This document shows, one piece after another, positions 2,016 through 12,072 of a stretch of DNA of 61,191 nt (its first letter is position 1; every line of letters begins with the position of its first letter). This DNA comes from Bacillota bacterium (GTDB lineage: Bacteria; Bacillota; Sulfobacillia; JACIYH01), in the NCBI GenBank assembly GCA_014360055.1, contig JACIYH010000005.1, forward strand, positions 1 through 61,191, written 5' to 3'. Both the position numbers and the translations under genes were made by a program. The notes under the pieces are model-generated. The model was given only the letters and a program-made list of their open reading frames with translations, made no database searches and was not told where the DNA came from.

Positions 2016-2409
2016 GGCTCAGGAGCGGGAGAAGATCTGTCAGCAGGCGGGCGCCGACCAGGATCGGACGGTGATCTGCCGCTGCGAGGACGTGACCCTG
2101 GGGGAGATCCGCCGTCTGATCGGCGAGGGCGTACACACTCTGGATGAGATCAAACGGCTGACGCGGGCGGGGATGGGTCTCTGCCAGGGCCGTACCTGCC
2201 GGCACCTCATCCTGCAGGAGGTATCGCGCCTGACCGGAGTCCCGGTGGAGGAGCTGACTCTGCCCACCTTCCGTCCTCCCACCCGTCCCGTCAAGCTGGG
2301 CGTTATCGCCCGTGCCGCCGCAGGGGCACGGCAGGATGCCGGCGCGGGCGTGCCCCACCCTGCCGCCGGGCGGGAGGCACTTCCGGTTGGGGGCGAGAGC
2401 CGTGGCTAG
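2008..2409 (+). CDS. (2Fe-2S)-binding BFD-domain protein
   Basis: A 133-residue protein whose first two thirds is a bacterioferritin-associated-ferredoxin (BFD) domain: CRCE near the start, then GLCQGRTC, giving the four cysteines that hold a 2Fe-2S cluster. In HcnB/OoxA-type proteins this domain is usually fused to the C-terminus of the FAD subunit; here it is free-standing. The last roughly 40 residues are low-complexity. GTG 2008 overlaps the stop of the ferredoxin gene by 8 bases; GTG 1999 is also possible. It is most likely a further redox relay of the dehydrogenase complex. Confidence 0.75.
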   Translation: MSEAQEREKICQQAGADQDRTVICRCEDVTLGEIRRLIGEGVHTLDEIKRLTRAGMGLCQGRTCRHLILQEVSRLTGVPVEELTLPTFRPPTRPVKLGVIARAAAGARQDAGAGVPHPAAGREALPVGGESRG

Positions 2410-3547
2410 GACGGCCGACGCGGTGGTGGTGGGCGGCGGCATCCAGGGGGTGGCGGTGGCCTACCAGTTGGCGACCCGGGGTCTCCGGCCCCTTCTGGTG
2501 GAGCAGGGGTACCTGGCCTCGGGCTCTACGGGCCGGTGTGCGGCGGGTGTGAGGCAGCAGTGGGGCACGGAGATGAACGTGCTCCTGGCGCGGGCGAGCA
2601 TCAAGATGTTCGAGCGGATGGAGGAGGAACTGGACTACCCCCGCGGGATTGAGTTCAAGCAGCGCGGGTACCTCATCCTGGCGTACCACGAGAGGCAGTG
2701 GGAGCAGTTCCTGCGCAACGTGGCCCTGCAGCGCTCCCTGGGGGTGCCGGTGGAGGTGCTGAGTCCGGAGGGGGCGCGGGAGATCGTGCCCTACCTCAAC
2801 GTGGAAGGGGTGGTGGGCGCCACCTTCTGTCCCGAGGACGGGCACATCAACCCCTTCCGGGCGGTGGAGGCCTACGCGCAGGCGGCAGTGCGGCTGGGTG
2901 CGGAGATCTGGACCTTCACCCGGGTGACGGGCATTGTGGTGGAAGGTGGCCGGGTGGTGGCGGTACACACCACCCGGGGTGACATTTCCACCCCGGTGGT
3001 GGTGAACACGGCGGGTCCGTGGTCGGATCAGGTGGCGCGCATGGCGGGTCTGGAGATCCCCACCTACGCGCAGCGGCATCAGATCCTGGTGACGGAGCCG
3101 GTGGGACCCGTGCAGGGGCCCATGGTGATTTCCTTCTTCCACGGCCTGTACTGCCAGCAGACACCGCACGGGAGCTTCATCATGGGGCTGGGTGATCCCC
3201 ACGAGCCCCGCAACCTGGACTGCGGGGCCACCTGGCGCTTTCTGGAGGAAATGGCGGCTGTCGTCACGAAGATGTTGCCACCGCTGGCCGAGTTACGGGT
3301 AGTGCGGCAGTGGGCGGGGTCTTACGACATGACGCCGGATGCCCAGCCTATCCTGGGGCCGGCGCCTGAGGTGGAGGGCTACTACTACTCGGTGGGGTTC
3401 TCGGGCCACGGTTTCATGCTGGCCCCCATGACGGGGAAGCTGCTGGCCCAACTCATCACGGGGGAGGAGCCTGACCTCCCCGTGGACCGGCTGGGGCCAA
3501 CCCGGTTCGCCCGGGGTGAGTTGATACTGGAGCCCTCTGTGGTGTGA
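2402..3547 (+). CDS. FAD-dependent DAO-family oxidoreductase, beta-type subunit (copy 1)
   Basis: A 381-residue member of the D-amino-acid/sarcosine oxidase (DAO) family. It has the N-terminal FAD motif GGGIQG (residues 11-16), the region GSTGRCAAGVRQQWG that in relatives contacts the flavin, and a C-terminal segment GYYYSVGFSGHGFMLAP typical of sarcosine/proline dehydrogenase beta subunits. The family oxidises the C-N bond of secondary or primary amines. GTG 2402 is preferred over the longer open frame because the FAD motif must lie near the N-terminus and the start overlaps the upstream stop by 8 bases. It is probably the catalytic subunit of the complex encoded upstream. A close paralogue follows at 3651. 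Confidence 0.88.
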   Translation: MARTADAVVVGGGIQGVAVAYQLATRGLRPLLVEQGYLASGSTGRCAAGVRQQWGTEMNVLLARASIKMFERMEEELDYPRGIEFKQRGYLILAYHERQWEQFLRNVALQRSLGVPVEVLSPEGAREIVPYLNVEGVVGATFCPEDGHINPFRAVEAYAQAAVRLGAEIWTFTRVTGIVVEGGRVVAVHTTRGDISTPVVVNTAGPWSDQVARMAGLEIPTYAQRHQILVTEPVGPVQGPMVISFFHGLYCQQTPHGSFIMGLGDPHEPRNLDCGATWRFLEEMAAVVTKMLPPLAELRVVRQWAGSYDMTPDAQPILGPAPEVEGYYYSVGFSGHGFMLAPMTGKLLAQLITGEEPDLPVDRLGPTRFARGELILEPSVV

Positions 3548-3650
3548 GCTTTCCCCCGGGCGGCCCGGGAGGGGCCACCGGGGGCTGCGGCGGAGCGTCC
3601 CTGCGCTGACGAAGGCACAACGCCAGCAAGGAGCGCGGCGAGCGCGAGGT

Positions 3651-4814
3651 GTGAGCGTGGCGGAGCAGGTCGCACGCACGGCCGACGTGGTGATCGTGGG
3701 AGGCGGGGTGCACGGTTGTGCCGTCGCCTATCACCTCTGCCGCCTGGGCGGCCTGAGGGTTTCCCTGTTCGAGCGAGGCTATCTGGCGGGCGGTGCCACC
3801 GGGCGGTCCGCCGCCGGCGTGCGCCACCAGTTCGGTACCGAGATCAATTGTCGCCTGGCCATCTGGAACATCCGCCTGCTGGAGGGCCTGGCGGAAGAGC
3901 TGGAATACCCGCACGACCTGGAATTCACCCAGGGCGGATACCTGTTGCTGGCGTACACGCCAGGTCAACTGGAGCAGTTTAAGCGCAACGTGGCCCTTCA
4001 GCGCAGCCTGGGTATCCCGTCGGAGATCCTCACACCGGAAGAGGTGGCCCGCGTGGCGCCTGCCCTTAACCTGGACGGGGTGCTGGGCGCCAGCTTCTGC
4101 CCGAGGGATGGCCACGTCAACCCCTTCCACCTCACCTGGGCATACGCCCGCGCCGCGCAACGGCTGGGTGCTGAGATCCATTGCTTTTGCCCCGTTCACG
4201 CCATTGTCTCGGATGGATCGCGGGTGCGGGGGGTCTACACGGCGTCCGGACGGGTGGAGGCGCCGGTGGTGGTGATCTGTGCGGGAGCGGAAGGTGCCGA
4301 ACTGGCGCGGGCGGCTGGTGTGGACGTACCCGTGTACGGCGAGCGTCACCAGATCCTGGTCACCGAGCCGGTGGCCCACTTCCTAGACCCCATGGTGCTC
4401 TGCTTCGAGGACGGTAGCTACTTCAAGCAGACACCCCACGGCAGCCTGCTCATGGGGATCGGGAGCCCCTTCGAGCCCAAGGGCTACGGGCAGGGATCGA
4501 GCTGGTACTTCCTGGAGGAGATGGCCACCCGCATCGTGCGTCACCTGCCCGCCCTGGCGGGGGTGCGCGTGGTGCGCCAGTGGGCGGGACTGTACGACAT
4601 CACCCCGGACTCCCAGGCCATCGTGGGGCTCGCCCCTCTGGAGGGCTTGTGGCTGGACCTGGGCTGGAGCGGGCACGGGTTGCAGTTTGCGCCCAGCATT
4701 GGCCTCATCCTCGCCCAGCTTATCCTGGACCAGAGCCCTCTGGTGGACGTGAGTCCTTTTCGCCCGGGGCGTTTTGCCGCAGGAGAACTGATCCCTGAGC
4801 CGGCCTGCGTGTAG
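3651..4814 (+). CDS. FAD-dependent DAO-family oxidoreductase, beta-type subunit (copy 2)
   Basis: A 387-residue paralogue of the preceding gene, aligning along its full length: GGGVHG FAD motif at about residues 17-22, GATGRSAAGVRHQFG, ITPDSQAIVGLAPLEG and a C-terminal GLWLDLGWSGHGLQFAP. Many substrate-side residues differ from copy 1. The two genes are separated by 103 bases, so copy 2 may have its own ribosome entry (GCGAGGT before GTG 3651). Two beta-type subunits next to one set of redox subunits suggest either two substrates sharing one electron-transfer module or a hetero-oligomer. Confidence 0.87.
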   Translation: MSVAEQVARTADVVIVGGGVHGCAVAYHLCRLGGLRVSLFERGYLAGGATGRSAAGVRHQFGTEINCRLAIWNIRLLEGLAEELEYPHDLEFTQGGYLLLAYTPGQLEQFKRNVALQRSLGIPSEILTPEEVARVAPALNLDGVLGASFCPRDGHVNPFHLTWAYARAAQRLGAEIHCFCPVHAIVSDGSRVRGVYTASGRVEAPVVVICAGAEGAELARAAGVDVPVYGERHQILVTEPVAHFLDPMVLCFEDGSYFKQTPHGSLLMGIGSPFEPKGYGQGSSWYFLEEMATRIVRHLPALAGVRVVRQWAGLYDITPDSQAIVGLAPLEGLWLDLGWSGHGLQFAPSIGLILAQLILDQSPLVDVSPFRPGRFAAGELIPEPACV

Positions 4815-4923
4815 GCCCCGGCAAAGGCCGGCAAGGGAGGCAGGTAGCGGTTAGTACAAGTTGGCGGCAGCGGTTCCCATGCGAGCCGCTTGCGGCGCGA
4901 AGGGGGTGAGAAGGAAGCTCCAC

Positions 4924-4956
4924 GGTGCCCGGGAGAGGGTCCGGGTGCCCGGGAGA
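4924..4956 (+). repeat. Two 13-base direct repeats 20 bases apart, upstream of livK
   Basis: The word GGTGCCCGGGAGA occurs at 4924-4936 and again at 4944-4956, exactly two turns of B-DNA apart. Each contains the palindrome CCCGGG. It lies in the 204-base gap before the substrate-binding-protein gene. The spacing would suit paired regulator binding, but no promoter is obvious beside it. Confidence 0.45.
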
Positions 4957-5018
4957 CAGGAAGGGCGCAAGGGGAATGAGGCCGGAGGTAAGCGTGAAGA
5001 CCGAAGGAGGGGAGCACA

Positions 5019-6173
5019 GTGAAGAAGGTACTCGCTGTCGCGGTGATCCTGGTCCTCGCCATTTCTCTCGGTGCCTGTGCCCAGAAACCCCAGGTTAAGG
5101 AAAAGCCCCCCATCAAGATCGGAGTGCAGGTCCCCCTCACCGGCGACTGGGCGTACGAGGGCCAGGGGATGCTCAACGGGATAAACATGCTGGCCGAGCA
5201 GATCAACAACGCCGGTGGTCTGCTCGACGGGCGTAAGATCGAGGTCATCCCCGCCGATGACAAGAGCGACGCCAAGGAGGCGGCCCTGGCCGCCCAGAAG
5301 CTCATCAACAGCGGGGTCATTGCGGTGGTGGGCAGCTATGCGTCCACCCTCACCGAAGCGTCTCAGGGGCTGTACAACGACAAGGGCATCGTGCAGATCA
5401 CCCCGTCTTCCACGGCCACCAAACTTTCCGAGCACGGGTACAAGCGCTTCTTCCGCACCTGCTTCCTGGACGACCGCCAGGGACTCTTCGCCGCCAAATT
5501 CATCGTAGAGACGCTCGGGTGCAAGAAGGTGGGCGTGGTCCACGACAACACCACCTACGCCAAGGGACTGGCCGAGTGGACCAAGAAGTACCTGGAGGAC
5601 GCCGGGGCCACGGTGGTGTTCTTCGACGCCCTTACCCCCAAGGAGAAGGATTACAGCGCCATACTCACCCGTCTGAAGAAGGCAGAGCCCGAGGCGTGGT
5701 ACTACACCGGTTACTTCCCCGAGGCGGCGCTCCTGGTGCGCCAGGCCGCCGACGTGGGGCTGAAGGCCCGGTTCGTAGCGGGTAACGCGGTGAACAACCC
5801 CGAGTTCGTGAAGCTCGCGGGCGTGGAGTACGCCAAGGGCACCATCGTCACCACGGAACCCTTGCCTACGGATCTGGAGTATCCAGAGGCGAAGAAGTTC
5901 CTGCAAGATTACAAGACCAAGTACGGCGAGTACCCCGGCAGCATCTGGCACCTCATGGCCGCGGACGCTTTCCGGCTGATCGTGGAGGCGATCAGGCAGA
6001 CCAACTCCGATGACCCGGGCAAGATAGCGGAGTACCTGCACACCCAGCTGAAGGACTTCCCCGGCATCACCGGACCCATCCTGGGGTTCGATGAGCGGGG
6101 TGACCGCAAGGGCACCATCCACAAGGCCTACGTGGTGAACGAAAAGGGCGAGTTCGTCCCGTACGGTAAGTAA
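5019..6173 (+). CDS. Branched-chain-amino-acid-type ABC transporter substrate-binding lipoprotein
   Basis: A 384-residue LivK/HAAT-family periplasmic-binding-type protein. The N-terminus is a lipoprotein signal: a basic KK start, a hydrophobic stretch, then the lipobox LGAC at residues 19-22, so it should be anchored outside the membrane. The mature part opens with IKIGVQVPLTGDWAYEGQG, the usual start of the type I binding fold, and includes GSYASTLTEASQGLYN. GTG 5019 follows GGAGGGGAG. Substrates of the family include amino acids, amides and betaines, so the ligand cannot be assigned; the neighbours suggest a secondary-amine amino acid. It is followed by two permeases and two ATPases. Confidence 0.9.
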   Translation: MKKVLAVAVILVLAISLGACAQKPQVKEKPPIKIGVQVPLTGDWAYEGQGMLNGINMLAEQINNAGGLLDGRKIEVIPADDKSDAKEAALAAQKLINSGVIAVVGSYASTLTEASQGLYNDKGIVQITPSSTATKLSEHGYKRFFRTCFLDDRQGLFAAKFIVETLGCKKVGVVHDNTTYAKGLAEWTKKYLEDAGATVVFFDALTPKEKDYSAILTRLKKAEPEAWYYTGYFPEAALLVRQAADVGLKARFVAGNAVNNPEFVKLAGVEYAKGTIVTTEPLPTDLEYPEAKKFLQDYKTKYGEYPGSIWHLMAADAFRLIVEAIRQTNSDDPGKIAEYLHTQLKDFPGITGPILGFDERGDRKGTIHKAYVVNEKGEFVPYGK

Positions 6174-6178
6174 GTCCG

Positions 6179-6228
6179 GGGGCAGGGGGCGGGTTGCCCC
6201 GTCCCCTGCCCCGCTGCGGGGCAGGGGG
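6179..6228 (+). promoter_or_regulatory. Competing hairpins covering the livH ribosome-binding site
   Basis: Three G/C blocks lie between the livK stop and the livH start. Block A (6179-6189) and block C (6218-6228) are the same 11-base word GGGGCAGGGGG. Block B (6203-6212, CCCCTGCCCC) is perfectly complementary to either. B with C gives a 10-base-pair stem with a 5-base loop that includes the AGGGGGA ribosome-binding site of livH. B with A gives an equally long stem that leaves that site free. The layout suggests control of permease translation or stability relative to the binding protein. The pairing is read directly; the function is inferred. Confidence 0.6.
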
Positions 6229-6232
6229 AAGC

Positions 6233-7138
6233 ATGGAAGAGTTTGTGCAGCAGTTGCTCAACGGCCTCACCGTGGGTTCCGGGTATGCCCTGGTGGCGCT
6301 GGGTTACACCATGGTGTACGGCGTGCTCAAGCTGATCAACTTCGCCCATGGCGACCTTTTCATGCTGGGGACCTACCTGGCCGTGAGTATGGCGGTGAGT
6401 TGCCTCGGGGCCGGGCTGGCCAGCCCCTGGGTAGTGCTCCCCATCATTTTCCTGACCTCTATGGGACTGGTCGGTGTGGCGGGGGTACTCATCGAGCGCA
6501 CGGCGTACCGCCCCCTGCGGGGCGCCGGGCACCTGGCCCCGGTGGTGTCGGCCCTGGGGGCGGCGGTGGTGATCCAGAACGCGGTGATGCTCGCATACGG
6601 GGCCAACTACCAGGTCTTCCCCGAGGGCCTGGTGCCGGAGGCGCGCTGGATCGTGGCGGGCATGAACATACCCGTCCTGCGGGTGGCCATGCTGGTGCTT
6701 TCCCTCATCCTCATGGCCATTCTCTATCTCTTCATCCAGCGCACCACGGTGGGGGCGGCCATCAGGGCCACCTCTTTGGACCACGACACCGCTCGTCTCA
6801 TGGGGATAGATATTAACCGCATCATCATGCTGGTCTTCCTGATCGGACCGGCGCTGGGGGCCGCGTCGGGCATCATGATCGGCCTGTACTACCGCCAGGT
6901 GTATTTCACCATGGGGTGGATCTACGGGTTGAAGGCCTTCACGGCGGCCATCCTGGGCGGTATCGGCAACATCCCGGGCGCCATGGTGGGTGGTATGATC
7001 CTGGGGCTGTTCGAAACCCTGGCCGCCGGGTACATCTCTTCGGCCTGGAAGGACGCCTTCGCCTTCGTGTTGCTCATCGCCATCCTGGTGCTGCGGCCCA
7101 CCGGTCTGCTGGGCGAGCGGGTGGTGGAGAAGCTGTGA
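6233..7138 (+). CDS. livH: Branched-chain-amino-acid-type ABC transporter permease LivH
   Basis: A 301-residue polytopic membrane protein of the LivH family, with GLTVGSGYALVALGYTMVYGVLKLINFAHGD at its N-terminus (shown in family terms; the key residues are the INFAHG turn) and the C-terminal LGGIGNIPGAMVGG coupling loop that docks on the ATPases. About eight hydrophobic segments can be seen. ATG 6233 follows AGGGGGA; the longer open frame has no supporting site. It overlaps the next permease gene by one base in TGATG. It forms the translocation pore together with LivM. Confidence 0.9.
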   Translation: MEEFVQQLLNGLTVGSGYALVALGYTMVYGVLKLINFAHGDLFMLGTYLAVSMAVSCLGAGLASPWVVLPIIFLTSMGLVGVAGVLIERTAYRPLRGAGHLAPVVSALGAAVVIQNAVMLAYGANYQVFPEGLVPEARWIVAGMNIPVLRVAMLVLSLILMAILYLFIQRTTVGAAIRATSLDHDTARLMGIDINRIIMLVFLIGPALGAASGIMIGLYYRQVYFTMGWIYGLKAFTAAILGGIGNIPGAMVGGMILGLFETLAAGYISSAWKDAFAFVLLIAILVLRPTGLLGERVVEKL

Positions 7139-8136
7139 TGGGAGCAGTACCTTTGCGCAAGTTGCCTCCCGGGTTGTGGCGGGGATTGGCCCTGGCGGCA
7201 GCGGTGGCGTACCCCTGGCTGGTGAACGACTACTGGGTGGACGTCATGAACTTCTGCGGGATATACATGCTGCTCGGCCTCAGCCTGAACATCATCGTGG
7301 GGTACGCGGGACTCTTCAATTTGGGGCATGCCGCCTTCTACGCCGTGGGCGCCTACACCACGGCCATCCTGTCCACCCGCTTCGGCATTCCCTCCCTTTG
7401 GCTCCTGCCCGTGTCCGCCCTGGCGGCGGCCGCCTTCGCCTACGTCATCTCCCGGCCCATCATCCACCTGCGGGGAGATTACCTGTGCGTGGTGACCATC
7501 GGGTTCGGGGAAATCGTACGCATCGCCCTCATCAACAACCCCGGCGGCCTCACCGGGGGGGTGAACGGGATCATCGGGGTGCCCCGCCCGGACCTGGGCC
7601 TCTTCACTGTCCGTTCGGTCGACCAGTACTACTACTTCATCCTGTTCTTCATCGTACTCTTCGTGTGGGGCATGGGCCGCCTGGAGAGGTCCCGCATCGG
7701 GCGGGCGTGGACCTGCATCAGGGAGGACGAAACCGCCGCTGAAGCCATGGGCATCGATACCGCCTCCCTGAAGCTGCTGGCCTTCGTGCTGGGGGCGGCC
7801 GGCGCCGGCCTGGCGGGCAACATCTATGCCACCAAGATGACCCTGGTTGCCCCCGAAGGTTTCAACTTCTGGGAGTCCTGTGTAATGTTCTGCATCGTGG
7901 TGCTGGGCGGGACCGGCTCCATCCCCGGCGTGATAGTTGCGTCCCTCGGCATGGCGGCCCTCCCCGAACTCTTCCGGGAGTTCGCCCGCGCCCGCATGCT
8001 GGTGTTCGGCCTGGCCATGGTGCTCATGATGATATTCCGGCCCCAGGGCCTGTGGCCCAGTGCCCACTGGCGGCGTCAGGTGAAGCGGGAGTCCGGGGTG
8101 ACCCCCATGCCGAGCGCGGGTTCCCCCGCGCAGTGA
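7138..8136 (+). CDS. livM: Branched-chain-amino-acid-type ABC transporter permease LivM
   Basis: A 332-residue membrane protein with the LivM hallmarks: LLGLSLNIIVGYAGLFNLGHAAF near the N-terminus, RGDYLCVVTIGFGEIVRI in the middle and GGTGSIPGVIVASL as the ATPase-contact loop. ATG 7138 shares its first base with the livH stop and is preceded by GGTGGAGAAG. The open frame extends about 220 bases further upstream inside livH, but this is only absence of stops. A charged, presumably cytoplasmic tail follows the last membrane segment. Confidence 0.9.
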   Translation: MGAVPLRKLPPGLWRGLALAAAVAYPWLVNDYWVDVMNFCGIYMLLGLSLNIIVGYAGLFNLGHAAFYAVGAYTTAILSTRFGIPSLWLLPVSALAAAAFAYVISRPIIHLRGDYLCVVTIGFGEIVRIALINNPGGLTGGVNGIIGVPRPDLGLFTVRSVDQYYYFILFFIVLFVWGMGRLERSRIGRAWTCIREDETAAEAMGIDTASLKLLAFVLGAAGAGLAGNIYATKMTLVAPEGFNFWESCVMFCIVVLGGTGSIPGVIVASLGMAALPELFREFARARMLVFGLAMVLMMIFRPQGLWPSAHWRRQVKRESGVTPMPSAGSPAQ

Positions 8137-8171
8137 CCGGCCTCCAGTTGAGGACGGGTGGGTGAGAGCGC

Positions 8172-8942
8172 TTGCTGGAAGTCAACTCGGTTACCAAACG
8201 GTTCGGCGGTTTGGTGGCTGTCAACCGGGTTTCCTTCGAGGTGAGACCGGGGGAGATCCTGGGCATGATCGGGCCCAACGGGGCGGGCAAGACCACCGTC
8301 TTCAACATGATCACGGGGATCTACCGCCCCGACGAGGGGAGCATCAGGCTGGAGGGACGCGATCTGGTGGGGCTGCGTCCCCACGACATCACCGCCCTGG
8401 GCATTGCCCGCACCTTCCAGACCATCAGGCTGTTCCCCAACCTGACCGTCATGGAGAACGTGATGGCGGGGCAGTTCTGCCGCACGCAGGCGGGGGTGTG
8501 GGATGCCCTCGCCCGCACCCGCCGGCACCACCGGGAGGAGCGCGCCATCCTGGAGGAGGCCGAGGCCCGGCTGGAGTTCATGGGGTTGTCCCACCTCGCC
8601 GAGGAACTGGCCCGCAACCTTCCCTACGGGCTGCAGCGGCGCCTGGAGATCGCGCGGGCCCTGGCCACCCGCCCCCGGTTGCTGGTGCTGGACGAGCCGG
8701 CGGGGGGACTGAACGAGCAGGAAACGCGCGAACTGATGGACTCGGTGGTGCAGATCCGGGAGAGCGGGATCACCGTCTTCCTGATCGAGCATGACATGAC
8801 GGTGGTGATGGGCATCTGCGACCGCATCGTGGTGCTGGACAACGGGGAGAAGATTGCGGAAGGCACCCCTCCGGAGGTGCAGGGCGATCCCCGCGTGATT
8901 GAAGCATACCTGGGGAAGGAAGAAGATGGGCTCCATGGTTGA
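8172..8942 (+). CDS. livG: Branched-chain-amino-acid-type ABC transporter ATPase LivG
   Basis: A 256-residue ABC ATPase. Walker A is GPNGAGKTT (about residues 36-44). The LivG-type segment TALGIARTFQTIRLFPNLTVMENV follows, then a signature region NLPYGLQRRLEIARAL, in which the usual LSYG is NLPYG, Walker B LLVLDEPAGGLN and the H-loop IEHDM. The start is TTG 8172 (no ATG or GTG fits the beginning of the first beta-strand). It overlaps livF by 17 bases and partners it on the cytoplasmic face of the importer. Confidence 0.92.
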   Translation: MLEVNSVTKRFGGLVAVNRVSFEVRPGEILGMIGPNGAGKTTVFNMITGIYRPDEGSIRLEGRDLVGLRPHDITALGIARTFQTIRLFPNLTVMENVMAGQFCRTQAGVWDALARTRRHHREERAILEEAEARLEFMGLSHLAEELARNLPYGLQRRLEIARALATRPRLLVLDEPAGGLNEQETRELMDSVVQIRESGITVFLIEHDMTVVMGICDRIVVLDNGEKIAEGTPPEVQGDPRVIEAYLGKEEDGLHG

Positions 8943-9657
8943 CGCCATTCTGGAAGTGGAGAACCTCCATGTTTATTACGGCCAGGTGCACGCCCTCAAG
9001 GGGATCAGCTTCACGGTCCGACCGGGTGAAATCGTGACCCTGCTGGGGGCCAACGGGGCGGGAAAGTCCACCACCCTGCGCGCCATCTCCGGGCTGATCC
9101 GGCCCCGGCAGGGTGATATCCGCTGGCAGGGGCGTTCGCTGCGCAACGTTTCCGCCCACGCCATCGTGGCCCGCGGGATTTCCCACGCCCCCGAGGGGCG
9201 GAAGGTGTTCAGCACCCTCACCGTGGAGGAGAACCTCAACCTGGGCGCCTATACCAGGCGGCGCGACAGGGAGGGCGTGGCCCGTAGCAAGGAGCGTGTC
9301 TTCGCCCTCTTCCCCCGCCTGGCCGAGCGGCGCCGCCAGCTGGCGGGGACCCTTTCCGGGGGTGAGCAGCAGATGCTGGCCATCGGGCGCGCCCTCATGT
9401 CCTCGCCCCGCCTCCTTCTCCTGGATGAACCCTCGCTGGGGCTCGCCCCCCTCCTGGTGCGGGCCATCTTCCAGACCATCCGTGAGATCAACGAGCAGGG
9501 AGTTACCATCCTGCTGGTAGAACAGAACGTTAGGGCGGCCCTCCGCCTGGCCCACCGGGCCTACGTCCTGGAGACGGGCAGGCTGGCCCTGGAAGGTACG
9601 GCGGAAGAACTGAGGCAGGACCCCCGGGTTCGCAAGGCCTACCTGGGCGAACGCTAG
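8926..9657 (+). CDS. livF: Branched-chain-amino-acid-type ABC transporter ATPase LivF
   Basis: A 243-residue ABC ATPase with Walker A GANGAGKST, the LivF-typical HAPEGRKVFSTLTVEENL, signature LSGGEQQMLAIGRAL, Walker B LLLLDEPSLGLAP and VEQNV at the H-loop position (Q instead of H, as usual in LivF). ATG 8926 follows GGGGAAGGAAGAAG. It completes a five-gene importer (K, H, M, G, F) in the standard order. Confidence 0.92.
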   Translation: MGSMVDAILEVENLHVYYGQVHALKGISFTVRPGEIVTLLGANGAGKSTTLRAISGLIRPRQGDIRWQGRSLRNVSAHAIVARGISHAPEGRKVFSTLTVEENLNLGAYTRRRDREGVARSKERVFALFPRLAERRRQLAGTLSGGEQQMLAIGRALMSSPRLLLLDEPSLGLAPLLVRAIFQTIREINEQGVTILLVEQNVRAALRLAHRAYVLETGRLALEGTAEELRQDPRVRKAYLGER

Positions 9658-9779
9658 CCGCGCGTGGCCGCGCGGGCGCTGCCCGGCCCCCAGGCCTGCC
9701 GCTCCGCGCGTGGCGGCGGGTCCCGTACCAGAAGCTACCCGAGATCGTGCCGGGTGGACCCGGCAGGGAGGTTTCGCGG

Positions 9780-10778
9780 ATGCCCCAGGAGTTGCTGGTG
9801 CTCACTGCCCAGGACGTCAAGCGGGCCCTGCCCATGGAGCGGGCCATTTCCGCCTGCGAGGAGGCCTATGCGGCCTATTCGGCCGGCGAGGCCGTGGTCC
9901 CCCTACGCACCCAGATACCGGTGCCCCACTACGAAGGGGTGAGTGTGTTCATGCCCGCTCACCTACCGGTGGCGGGGAGCACCGCCCTCAAGGTGGTCTC
10001 CGTGTACCCGCGCAACCCGGAACGGGGGCTGCCCACCATCATGGGCATGGTGGTGCTTCTGGACGCCACCACCGGTGCCCCTCTGGCCCTGCTGGAAGGG
10101 GGATACCTGACCGCCCTGCGTACGGGTGCTGCCGCCGGGGCCGCCGCCCGCCACCTGGCGCCCGCTGGAGCCAGGGTGGCCGCCCTGTTCGGCGCGGGGG
10201 TACAGGGTCGCACCCAGGTGCTGGCCCTGGCCGCGGTGCGTCCCCTCGAGGAAGTGCGCGTCTTCGACCCCGTGCCCGGGCGGGCGCAGGCCCTGGCGGC
10301 CGACCTGGGCGCAGAACTGCCGGGGGTGAGGTGGGTTTTCCCGGACGAGCCCCGGGAGGCGGTGCAGGGGGCGGAGGTCGTCATCACGGCCACCACCTCC
10401 TCCACGCCCGTCTTCCCCGGGGACGCCCTGGCGCCCGGCACCCACGTGAGCGCCATCGGCTCTTTCACGCCCACCATGCAGGAGATCGATGAGACCACGG
10501 TGCTGCGGGCGGATAAGCTGGTGGTTGACTCGCGGGAGGCGGTGCTGGTCGAGGCGGGGGACATCATCATCCCCATGCAACGGGGCGCCATCACCCCCGA
10601 TCGCATCTTCGCCGAGGTGGGAGAAATCGTGCGGGGCAGGAAGCCCGGCCGCGAACGCCCGGACGAGATCACGGTGTACAAGGCGGTAGGCCTGGCCGTG
10701 CTCGATGCGGCCGCGGCCGCCGCCGCCTACCGCGGCGCCGCCGAACTGGGGCTGGGCACACGGGTGCGCCTCATGTGA
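9780..10778 (+). CDS. Ornithine cyclodeaminase/mu-crystallin family NAD(P)-dependent enzyme, probably an imine reductase
   Basis: A 332-residue protein with the family features: LKVVSVYPRNPERGLPT, LLEGGYLTALRTGAAAG, the Rossmann motif FGAGVQGRTQ, and a C-terminal DSREAVLVEAGD segment very like that of mammalian mu-crystallin (CRYM). True ornithine cyclodeaminases carry a catalytic Asp in a GGD motif; here the aligned stretch is IGSFTP (residues 226-231), with Phe229 in that place. A cyclodeaminase role is therefore unlikely. A ketimine or pyrroline-2-carboxylate reductase, or an amino-acid dehydrogenase, fits better. ATG 9780 follows AGGGAGGT. Next to amine-oxidising flavoproteins it could reduce a cyclic imine product. 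Confidence 0.82.
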   Translation: MPQELLVLTAQDVKRALPMERAISACEEAYAAYSAGEAVVPLRTQIPVPHYEGVSVFMPAHLPVAGSTALKVVSVYPRNPERGLPTIMGMVVLLDATTGAPLALLEGGYLTALRTGAAAGAAARHLAPAGARVAALFGAGVQGRTQVLALAAVRPLEEVRVFDPVPGRAQALAADLGAELPGVRWVFPDEPREAVQGAEVVITATTSSTPVFPGDALAPGTHVSAIGSFTPTMQEIDETTVLRADKLVVDSREAVLVEAGDIIIPMQRGAITPDRIFAEVGEIVRGRKPGRERPDEITVYKAVGLAVLDAAAAAAAYRGAAELGLGTRVRLM

Positions 10779-10923
10779 GAGGCCGCCTCGCGTGCGGGGG
10801 TCCGGGGCGGGGCCTCGCGTGCCGCGCATCTGGAGGTTGCCACGCGCATGGTGCTGATCTCAGGGCCGCGTCCCGCGGTGCGGCTTATCTCGAGCCTCGG
10901 CTGCGGGAAAAGTATGGCCGGGG

Positions 10924-12072
10924 GTGAACGCCTTCGGCCGCCGGAGCGGGGGACCTGTGTTCGCCGTTCTGGGGGGCGGGCACGGGGGCATGGCCGCGGC
11001 CGCCGACCTGGCCCTGCGTGGCTTCCGGGTGCGGCTCTTTGAGCTGCCCGAGTTCGCCCACACCATCCGGCCGGTCAGGGAGGCGGGGGGCATCCAGACC
11101 GAGGTGCTGCCCAGCACCGGCCTGCGGGAAGGGTTTGCGCGGCTGGATGCCGTCACCACGGATATCGAAGAGGCGGTCACCGGGGCCGACGTCGTGCTGG
11201 TCATTGTGCCTTCGTTCGCCCACCAGCGCTTCGCCGAGTTGACCGCACCCGCGGTGCGGCCGGGGCAGACGGTACTGGTGGCGCCCGGGAACTTCGGCGG
11301 TGCCCTGGAGTTCGCCCTTACCTGGAAGAGGGCGGGCCGGGACCCGGGCGCGGTGACGCTGGCCGAGGCGGAATCTCTCATCTATGCCTGCCGGAAGAAG
11401 GGTCCCGCCACCATCTGGATCCGCGGCTACAAGCGCTCCCTCCGGGTGGCGGCCCTGCCGGCCAACCGCACCGCTTGGGCCCTGGCCGTCCTGGGGCAGG
11501 CTTACCCCACTCTGGAGCCCGCCCAAAACGTGCTGGAGACCAGCCTCAGCAACCCCAATGCACCTACCCACCTCCCCGTCATGATCCTGAATGCGGCCCA
11601 CATCGAACGTACGGGCGGGGACTTCCTCTTCTACAAGGAGGGGATGACCCCCGTGGTGGGGCGGGTGATCGAGGCCCTCGACGCGGAGCGTCTGGCCGTG
11701 GGGCGGGCCCTCGGCCTTTCCCGCCTGCGGTCTCTATACGAGCAGGACCTGGCCTGGTACGCCCACCAGGGCACCTTCGGAGAGAACATCTGCCAGACCA
11801 ACGTGAATAACCCCATCTACAGCTGGAGCCGGGCCCCTGAGTCCTTCGACCACCGCTACGTCACCGAGGACGTGCCCTACGGCCTGGTCCCCCTCGAGGA
11901 CCTGGGGGTCAGGCTGGGCGTGGCGACTCCCACCGCCACGGCCGTCATCCACCTGGCGAGCGTCATCGCGGGGCGCGACCTGCGCCGGGGCGCCCGCACC
12001 CTGACGAGACTGGGCCTGGGGGACGTCTCCGTTCCGCGACTCCTGGAGATGGTCGAGGAGACGGGCCCGTGA
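10924..12072 (+). CDS. Octopine/nopaline dehydrogenase family NAD(P)-binding protein
   Basis: A 382-residue protein with an N-terminal Rossmann domain (VLGGGHGGMAAAADLALRG, GGGHGG at 17-22) and the all-alpha C-terminal domain of opine dehydrogenases, including LSNPNAPTHLPVMILNAA, whose conserved His-containing segment is part of the substrate site in that family. Family members form or split N-(carboxyalkyl)amino acids such as octopine, nopaline and metallophores. GTG 10924 starts the frame. The stop overlaps the amidohydrolase start by 4 bases (GTGA). The neighbours argue for a catabolic role, but direction and substrate are unknown. Confidence 0.82.
   Translation: MNAFGRRSGGPVFAVLGGGHGGMAAAADLALRGFRVRLFELPEFAHTIRPVREAGGIQTEVLPSTGLREGFARLDAVTTDIEEAVTGADVVLVIVPSFAHQRFAELTAPAVRPGQTVLVAPGNFGGALEFALTWKRAGRDPGAVTLAEAESLIYACRKKGPATIWIRGYKRSLRVAALPANRTAWALAVLGQAYPTLEPAQNVLETSLSNPNAPTHLPVMILNAAHIERTGGDFLFYKEGMTPVVGRVIEALDAERLAVGRALGLSRLRSLYEQDLAWYAHQGTFGENICQTNVNNPIYSWSRAPESFDHRYVTEDVPYGLVPLEDLGVRLGVATPTATAVIHLASVIAGRDLRRGARTLTRLGLGDVSVPRLLEMVEETGP

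Follow-up and report, generated by a model that had tools for sequence, protein, structure and literature searches.

Translational attenuation of the ermC type uses mutually exclusive RNA helices, with the Shine-Dalgarno sequence (SD) in one arm and the position of a ribosome as the selector. In the ABC-importer operons of cellulolytic Clostridia, a long GC-rich stem-loop with little or no U tract lies between the binding-protein and translocator genes and is reported to cause partial termination (PMC9045158). For E. coli malE-malF, PMC5927463 describes a hairpin with no U tract after the binding-protein stop, protective at the 3′ end and expected to favor the upstream gene; stabilized binding-protein genes of other importers are also described there. 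Coupling of adjacent genes is presented, in PMC12548453, as translation of one gene promoting its neighbor.

We analyzed a 61,191-nt contig of a Bacillota bacterium of the class Sulfobacillia (JACIYH010000005.1; the window), in which the short gap between a livK-type and a livH-type gene partly resembles these systems. It shares with the clostridial operons the long GC-rich stem-loop and its place between binding-protein and translocator genes, the U tract being slight or absent, and with malE-malF a hairpin after the binding-protein stop, the lack of a U tract and the expectation that the upstream gene is favored. The clostridial structures are reported as single stem-loops with no additional structures and have at least discrete Us on the 3′ side (PMC9045158), whereas in the window a further block that carries the SD competes for pairing, and a discrete U-rich tail is lacking. 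The hairpin itself is of a known kind, with the SD competition a plausible variant at the level of the genus. We consider a two-layer account probable: a 3′ stem-loop of the binding-protein gene, and, at the level of the genus, competition for the SD of the next gene.

Layout of the livK-livH gap

The features of the locus, all on the + strand, are as follows.

5019-6173, +, livK-type binding-protein gene (Peripla_BP_6), 384 aa, stop TAA at 6171-6173
6174-6232, +, livK-livH gap, 59 nt; against the congener G002, 0 substitutions and one inserted G there
6179-6193, +, G-rich 5′ arm of hairpin A:B, beginning 5 nt past the livK stop; block A is 6179-6189
6198-6212, +, C-rich 3′ arm of hairpin A:B; block B is 6203-6212
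6203-6227, +, alternative hairpin B:C, 11 bp with a 3-nt loop, ending 5 nt short of the livH ATG
6218-6228, +, block C, the second copy of GGGGCAGGGGG, including the SD AGGGGG at 6223-6228
6233-7138, +, livH-type permease gene (BPD_transp_2), ATG start at 6233

The sequence and a repeat finder agree that GGGGCAGGGGG is present twice in identical form, as A and as C, at a spacing of 39; none of 300 dinucleotide shuffles of the gap matches this 11-nt direct repeat. The repeat finder also gives two inverted pairs. The first, 6179-6193/6198-6212 (15 nt, 93% complementary, loop of 4), is the 15-bp hairpin A:B, with a folding energy of −37.4 kcal/mol. The second, 6203-6214/6216-6227 (12 nt, full complementarity), is the B:C hairpin (−25.7 kcal/mol), and the livH SD, falling within C, is inside it. 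Since both hairpins use block B they are mutually exclusive. The initial annotation had described exactly this, two identical 11-base G-rich blocks able to pair with one C-rich block in exclusive hairpins, and had correctly placed the upstream block within the footprint of a ribosome terminating on livK.

The fold of the 111-nt region is more stable than expected (z −3.75, with equally stable folds in 0 of 200 shuffles), as is that of the bare 68-nt stretch (z −2.11; 6 of 200 shuffles). Scored as the best individual hairpin, A:B is equaled in 8% of cases when its GC-rich gap is shuffled (p 0.08), and composition therefore accounts for part of its stability.

A genome-wide repeat search found no further copy of the gap element in the 2.7-Mb genome, and a dispersed palindrome or REP-like repeat is thereby ruled out. 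In this the window differs from malE-malF, whose structure we take to be a dispersed REP element. The best Rfam match to the gap by E-value, CsrC, falls with 22.1 bits below the gathering score of 61 and was taken as chance. A sigma-70 promoter scan of 4700-10000 found no site, which is uninformative since none was found for the operon either.

The transporter operon is flanked, within 2312-12072 of the window, by genes for two DAO-type FAD oxidoreductases, an ornithine cyclodeaminase-family protein and an octopine dehydrogenase-family protein. These neighbors suggest uptake and breakdown of an opine, a proline-like compound or a D-amino acid, as candidate substrates of the operon.

Stem-loops after binding-protein genes

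A livK match at E ≤ 1e-60 was present in 33 of 121 relatives, and again in 33 of 154 genomes of the class. Loci were fetched for 30 of the 33, and together with that of a named Limnochordaceae MAG (L003) these give 31 livK junctions; four more distant loci (L004-L007, 24-27% identity) were left out of all gap counts. A hairpin of −15 kcal/mol or better lies in the gap at 27 of the 31, and at the four junctions lacking one (L003, L025-L027) the gap measures just 18-21 nt. When each gap is shuffled as its own control, 18 of the 27 hairpins reach p ≤ 0.05, the window's own value being 0.08. Stem sequences differ between families and lineages, yet the hairpin persists, and in most livK junctions of the relatives the SD lies outside it.

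In the congener G001 the hairpin follows livK although the next gene is a proline racemase, with livH 1.1 kb further on:

L010 2722-3720, proline racemase gene between livK and livH in G001 (PF05544, E 3.5e-117)

The hairpin thus goes with the binding-protein gene, and the claim of the initial annotation that livH is the gated gene does not hold for G001. The conserved and older part is A:B alone, a 3′ element of livK that also occurs where there is no SD competition.

The association extends to other binding-protein genes. Across three congeners a hairpin begins within 20 nt of the stop at 13 of 15 binding-protein junctions, as against 15 of 44 other same-strand gaps (p 0.0005; the gene calls behind these 44 controls come from a codon-usage script and are rough). 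With orthologues dropped the counts are 10 of 12 against 15 of 44 (p 0.003). The 15 junctions are drawn from 19 binding-protein loci, two having no gap (L085, L095) and two a next start that was not placed (L087, L094); L038 was scored as a miss under the 20-nt limit, though a −43.7 hairpin begins there 23 nt past the stop. The 5′ arms of binding-protein hairpins, such as window 6179-6193, are purine-rich, with a purine fraction above half in 28 of 30; the genus mean is 0.71, against 0.47 in other post-stop hairpins (p 0.0007).

We are therefore largely confident in the first layer, that A:B is a 3′ stem-loop of the binding-protein gene which lowers downstream output relative to livK. Its position, structure and recurrence at binding-protein genes are observed directly, and its biochemical effect is most likely the following. 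A:B would fold behind the polymerase directly after the livK stop and would mainly shield the livK mRNA from 3′ exonucleases, perhaps with some premature termination or pausing. We infer protection to be the likelier effect because the window has no U tract. The 3′ side of A:B lacks even a discrete U-rich tail, its sequence being GCTGCGGG, which makes intrinsic termination doubtful; a consensus intrinsic terminator was rejected, as a terminator scan lists no site in the gap. These same two observations weigh against a rate-limiting internal terminator, by which some transcripts would stop at A:B, downstream of livK, in the manner of cellulolytic Clostridia. Such a terminator would fit the position, the long GC-rich stem and the low U content that PMC9045158 reports, and we hold it possible but unlikely.

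A different arrangement was observed at 11 livK-livH junctions of families f96, f109 and f119 (L066, L067, L068, L070-L075, L077 and L078), picked from 18 new loci of the phylum for having GGAGGTG at a distance of over 45 nt before the start. Each has GGAGGTG, 0-3 nt, a strong hairpin, 5-9 nt and ATG. From SD to ATG the linear sequence measures 46-78 nt, which looping out the hairpin would shorten to 5-12 nt; the hairpins differ in length, and the flanks on either side are kept. L069, L076 and L080 of the same families lack the arrangement, and L082 has it by eye. By analogy these are apparently 'split' ribosome-binding sites, resembling with their hairpin between SD and AUG those of T4 genes 25 and 38 as PMC3014915 describes them; in the window, by contrast, the SD comes after the A:B hairpin. 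Five aligned f96 loci were too few for a signal in a pair-count covariation analysis of the split-site hairpin.

Modeled competition for the Shine-Dalgarno sequence

A:B is dominant in partition-function folds of the free RNA, with an unpaired fraction of 56-82% for the SD hexamer, according to which flanks are folded with it. Even there the wider SD region is only 40% open and the livH ATG is paired, which counts against the second layer. A ribosome was modeled by forcing its footprint on the livK stop to be unpaired, counted from the first base of the stop. With a footprint to about +10, A:B stays; from +11 or +12, B passes to C, and openness of the SD region falls from 0.40 to about 0.13. 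The threshold shifts little from 37 to 70°C. The modeled swap in G002 resembles that of the window; in G001 it sets in at +15 when the RNA is folded at 37°C, whereas a footprint to about +11 is enough at 60°C. The swap that the initial annotation had proposed for termination on livK is thus seen in all three genus members, in folding models that are at equilibrium and silent on rates.

The second layer would then act as follows. A ribosome on the livK stop would cover A, leaving B to pair with C and hiding the next SD; with A free, A:B would form and the next SD would be more open, such that heavy livK translation would hold down initiation on the next gene. The likeness to the ermC type lies in the exclusive helices, one of which sequesters the SD, with ribosome position as the selector in folding models alone. 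The window differs in having no leader peptide or stalling signal, the upstream frame being the full 384-aa livK gene, and in that its gating ribosome would end a full structural gene and hide the SD rather than free it. This sign also speaks against classical positive translational coupling, in which the terminating ribosome would open livH. The genes are close and in one operon, and such coupling is common in bacteria according to PMC12548453; the same paper associates structure just past a stop with lower coupling, and in the models the ribosome on the stop closes the SD. We regard positive coupling here as very unlikely.

How far the SD closes when a ribosome occupies the stop was scored, as the fall in its openness, at 30 of 61 junctions, against shuffles that keep an A:B-type hairpin. 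The remainder comprised 10 with gaps below 40 or above 180 nt, 17 where no hairpin reaching −15 begins in the first 20 nt past the stop, and 4 where too short a stretch follows it. The three largest falls among the 30, at 0.28, 0.27 and 0.25 (p 0.025, 0.0125 and 0.0625), are those of the congeneric livK junctions, against a mean of 0.03 for the whole set. When A is blocked completely, these three junctions come second to fourth among 36 in B:C pairing. Elsewhere in the genus, binding-protein junctions respond not at all or in the opposite direction (L084, −0.13; L096, −0.21). A null that shuffles the whole gap, and so destroys A:B, gave p ≤ 0.03 at 6 of 15 genus junctions, and was not relied on because the fairer null keeping A:B leaves mainly the livK junctions.

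Other G-rich/C-rich/G-rich triplets around an SD were seen in the gaps after the binding-protein stop at L041 (G000:C124), with a modeled fall in SD openness of 0.21, and at the above L096 (G002:C12), where the sign is opposite. In family f24 (L021-L024) GGGGAGGG(A), 8-9 nt, is common to the SD region and the 5′ arm of a long hairpin, which lies too far from the stop for a terminating ribosome to reach.

Whether these blocks are conserved as RNA was considered against two congeners. In G002 the livK protein is 96% identical to that of the window, and A, B and C are identical, the one added G lying just 5′ of A. The gap falls within 110 nt free of substitutions (6129-6238), a run exceeded by just one other in the 37.7 kb that align; divergence is 16.4% over this whole alignment and 8.5% in 2389-9659. 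Around the next two gaps of the operon, neither 8090-8150 (the livM end and the gap before the first ATPase gene) nor 9660-9785 (after the second ATPase gene) aligns. As a sign of RNA conservation the run is suggestive only, and it need not be RNA-specific, since the 3′ end of livK and the 5′ end of livH share in the low divergence. The two genomes, identical over all three blocks, are not independent, which leaves G001 as the informative one. Its A, B and C differ in sequence, and in its fold B pairs with C through a long helix when A is covered; shuffling the sequence downstream of B never gave an equally good pairing (0 of 200). This falls short of strict covariation in relatives, which the initial annotation had proposed as a check, the evidence being one diverged congener that keeps competing blocks of different sequence.

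The exact identity of A and C, and a conserved run that reaches into both genes, would also fit a recent template switch that copied A into C, the near-identity with G002 then reflecting recent ancestry or exchange and not selection. The far more diverged G001 has its own competing C block, and we find this origin improbable.

A stronger rival is that only the first layer is real: a purine-rich 5′ arm entails a 3′ arm rich in pyrimidines, which, lying beside any purine-rich SD, would yield B:C as a by-product. The purine bias of the 5′ arms given above points this way, as does the absence of an SD swap in most relatives. Shuffled B arms, moreover, still pair strongly, and almost equally, with the window's SD region (−22.4 vs. 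−25.4, p 0.14), so base composition supplies much of the effect. When only the part after B is shuffled, the fall in openness is matched by 9.5% of shuffles for the window in one run and 1.25% in another scoring, and by 17.5% for G001. A general anti-SD character of B arms was rejected: over 45 junctions the mean z is −0.30, and 4 of them reach p ≤ 0.05. In this complementarity test the L009 row is inflated, as the stem chosen included C. Against the by-product stand the ranking of the three congeners at the top of the 30, the exact 11-nt copy that no shuffle matched, and the B:C pairing kept in G001 with different sequence. We give the by-product an even chance. Support for a competing SD block particular to this genus is moderate, the modeled nulls giving p from 0.01 to 0.18 with one informative diverged congener. 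That the next gene's SD in block C competes with A for B in this genus, gated by livK termination, is a tentative reading on our part. The sequence blocks and the modeled swap are observed in all three congeners, and action and importance in cells are plausible on the models.

A possible coupling tied to livK termination

Taken together, the initial annotation was partly supported, its observation being right and its interpretation half right. Should the SD competition operate, it might amount to a negative translational coupling linked to livK, each ribosome that ends livK transiently closing the next gene, whatever that gene is; this seems to us doubtful but possible. The switch would on that reading, held with the same reserve, consist of the livK stop, the SD-like block just after it and the next SD, with livH as the next gene in two species and proline racemase in the third. 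Its sign, taken from the folding models, would be opposite to that of usual translational coupling, as the ribosome on the livK stop would hide the next SD.

Literature searches aimed at this arrangement or at livK-livH stem-loops, in a collection that lacks most subscription journals, brought up no description of it, which is weak evidence of novelty; one synthetic MS2-based design was found. An importer needs more binding protein than membrane partner, and the means by which operons set this ratio are only partly known. The published cases use a fixed stem-loop. An alternative pairing tied to termination on the first gene would, if true, make the ratio responsive to translation itself and provide an unusual example of an upstream gene whose translation closes the next.
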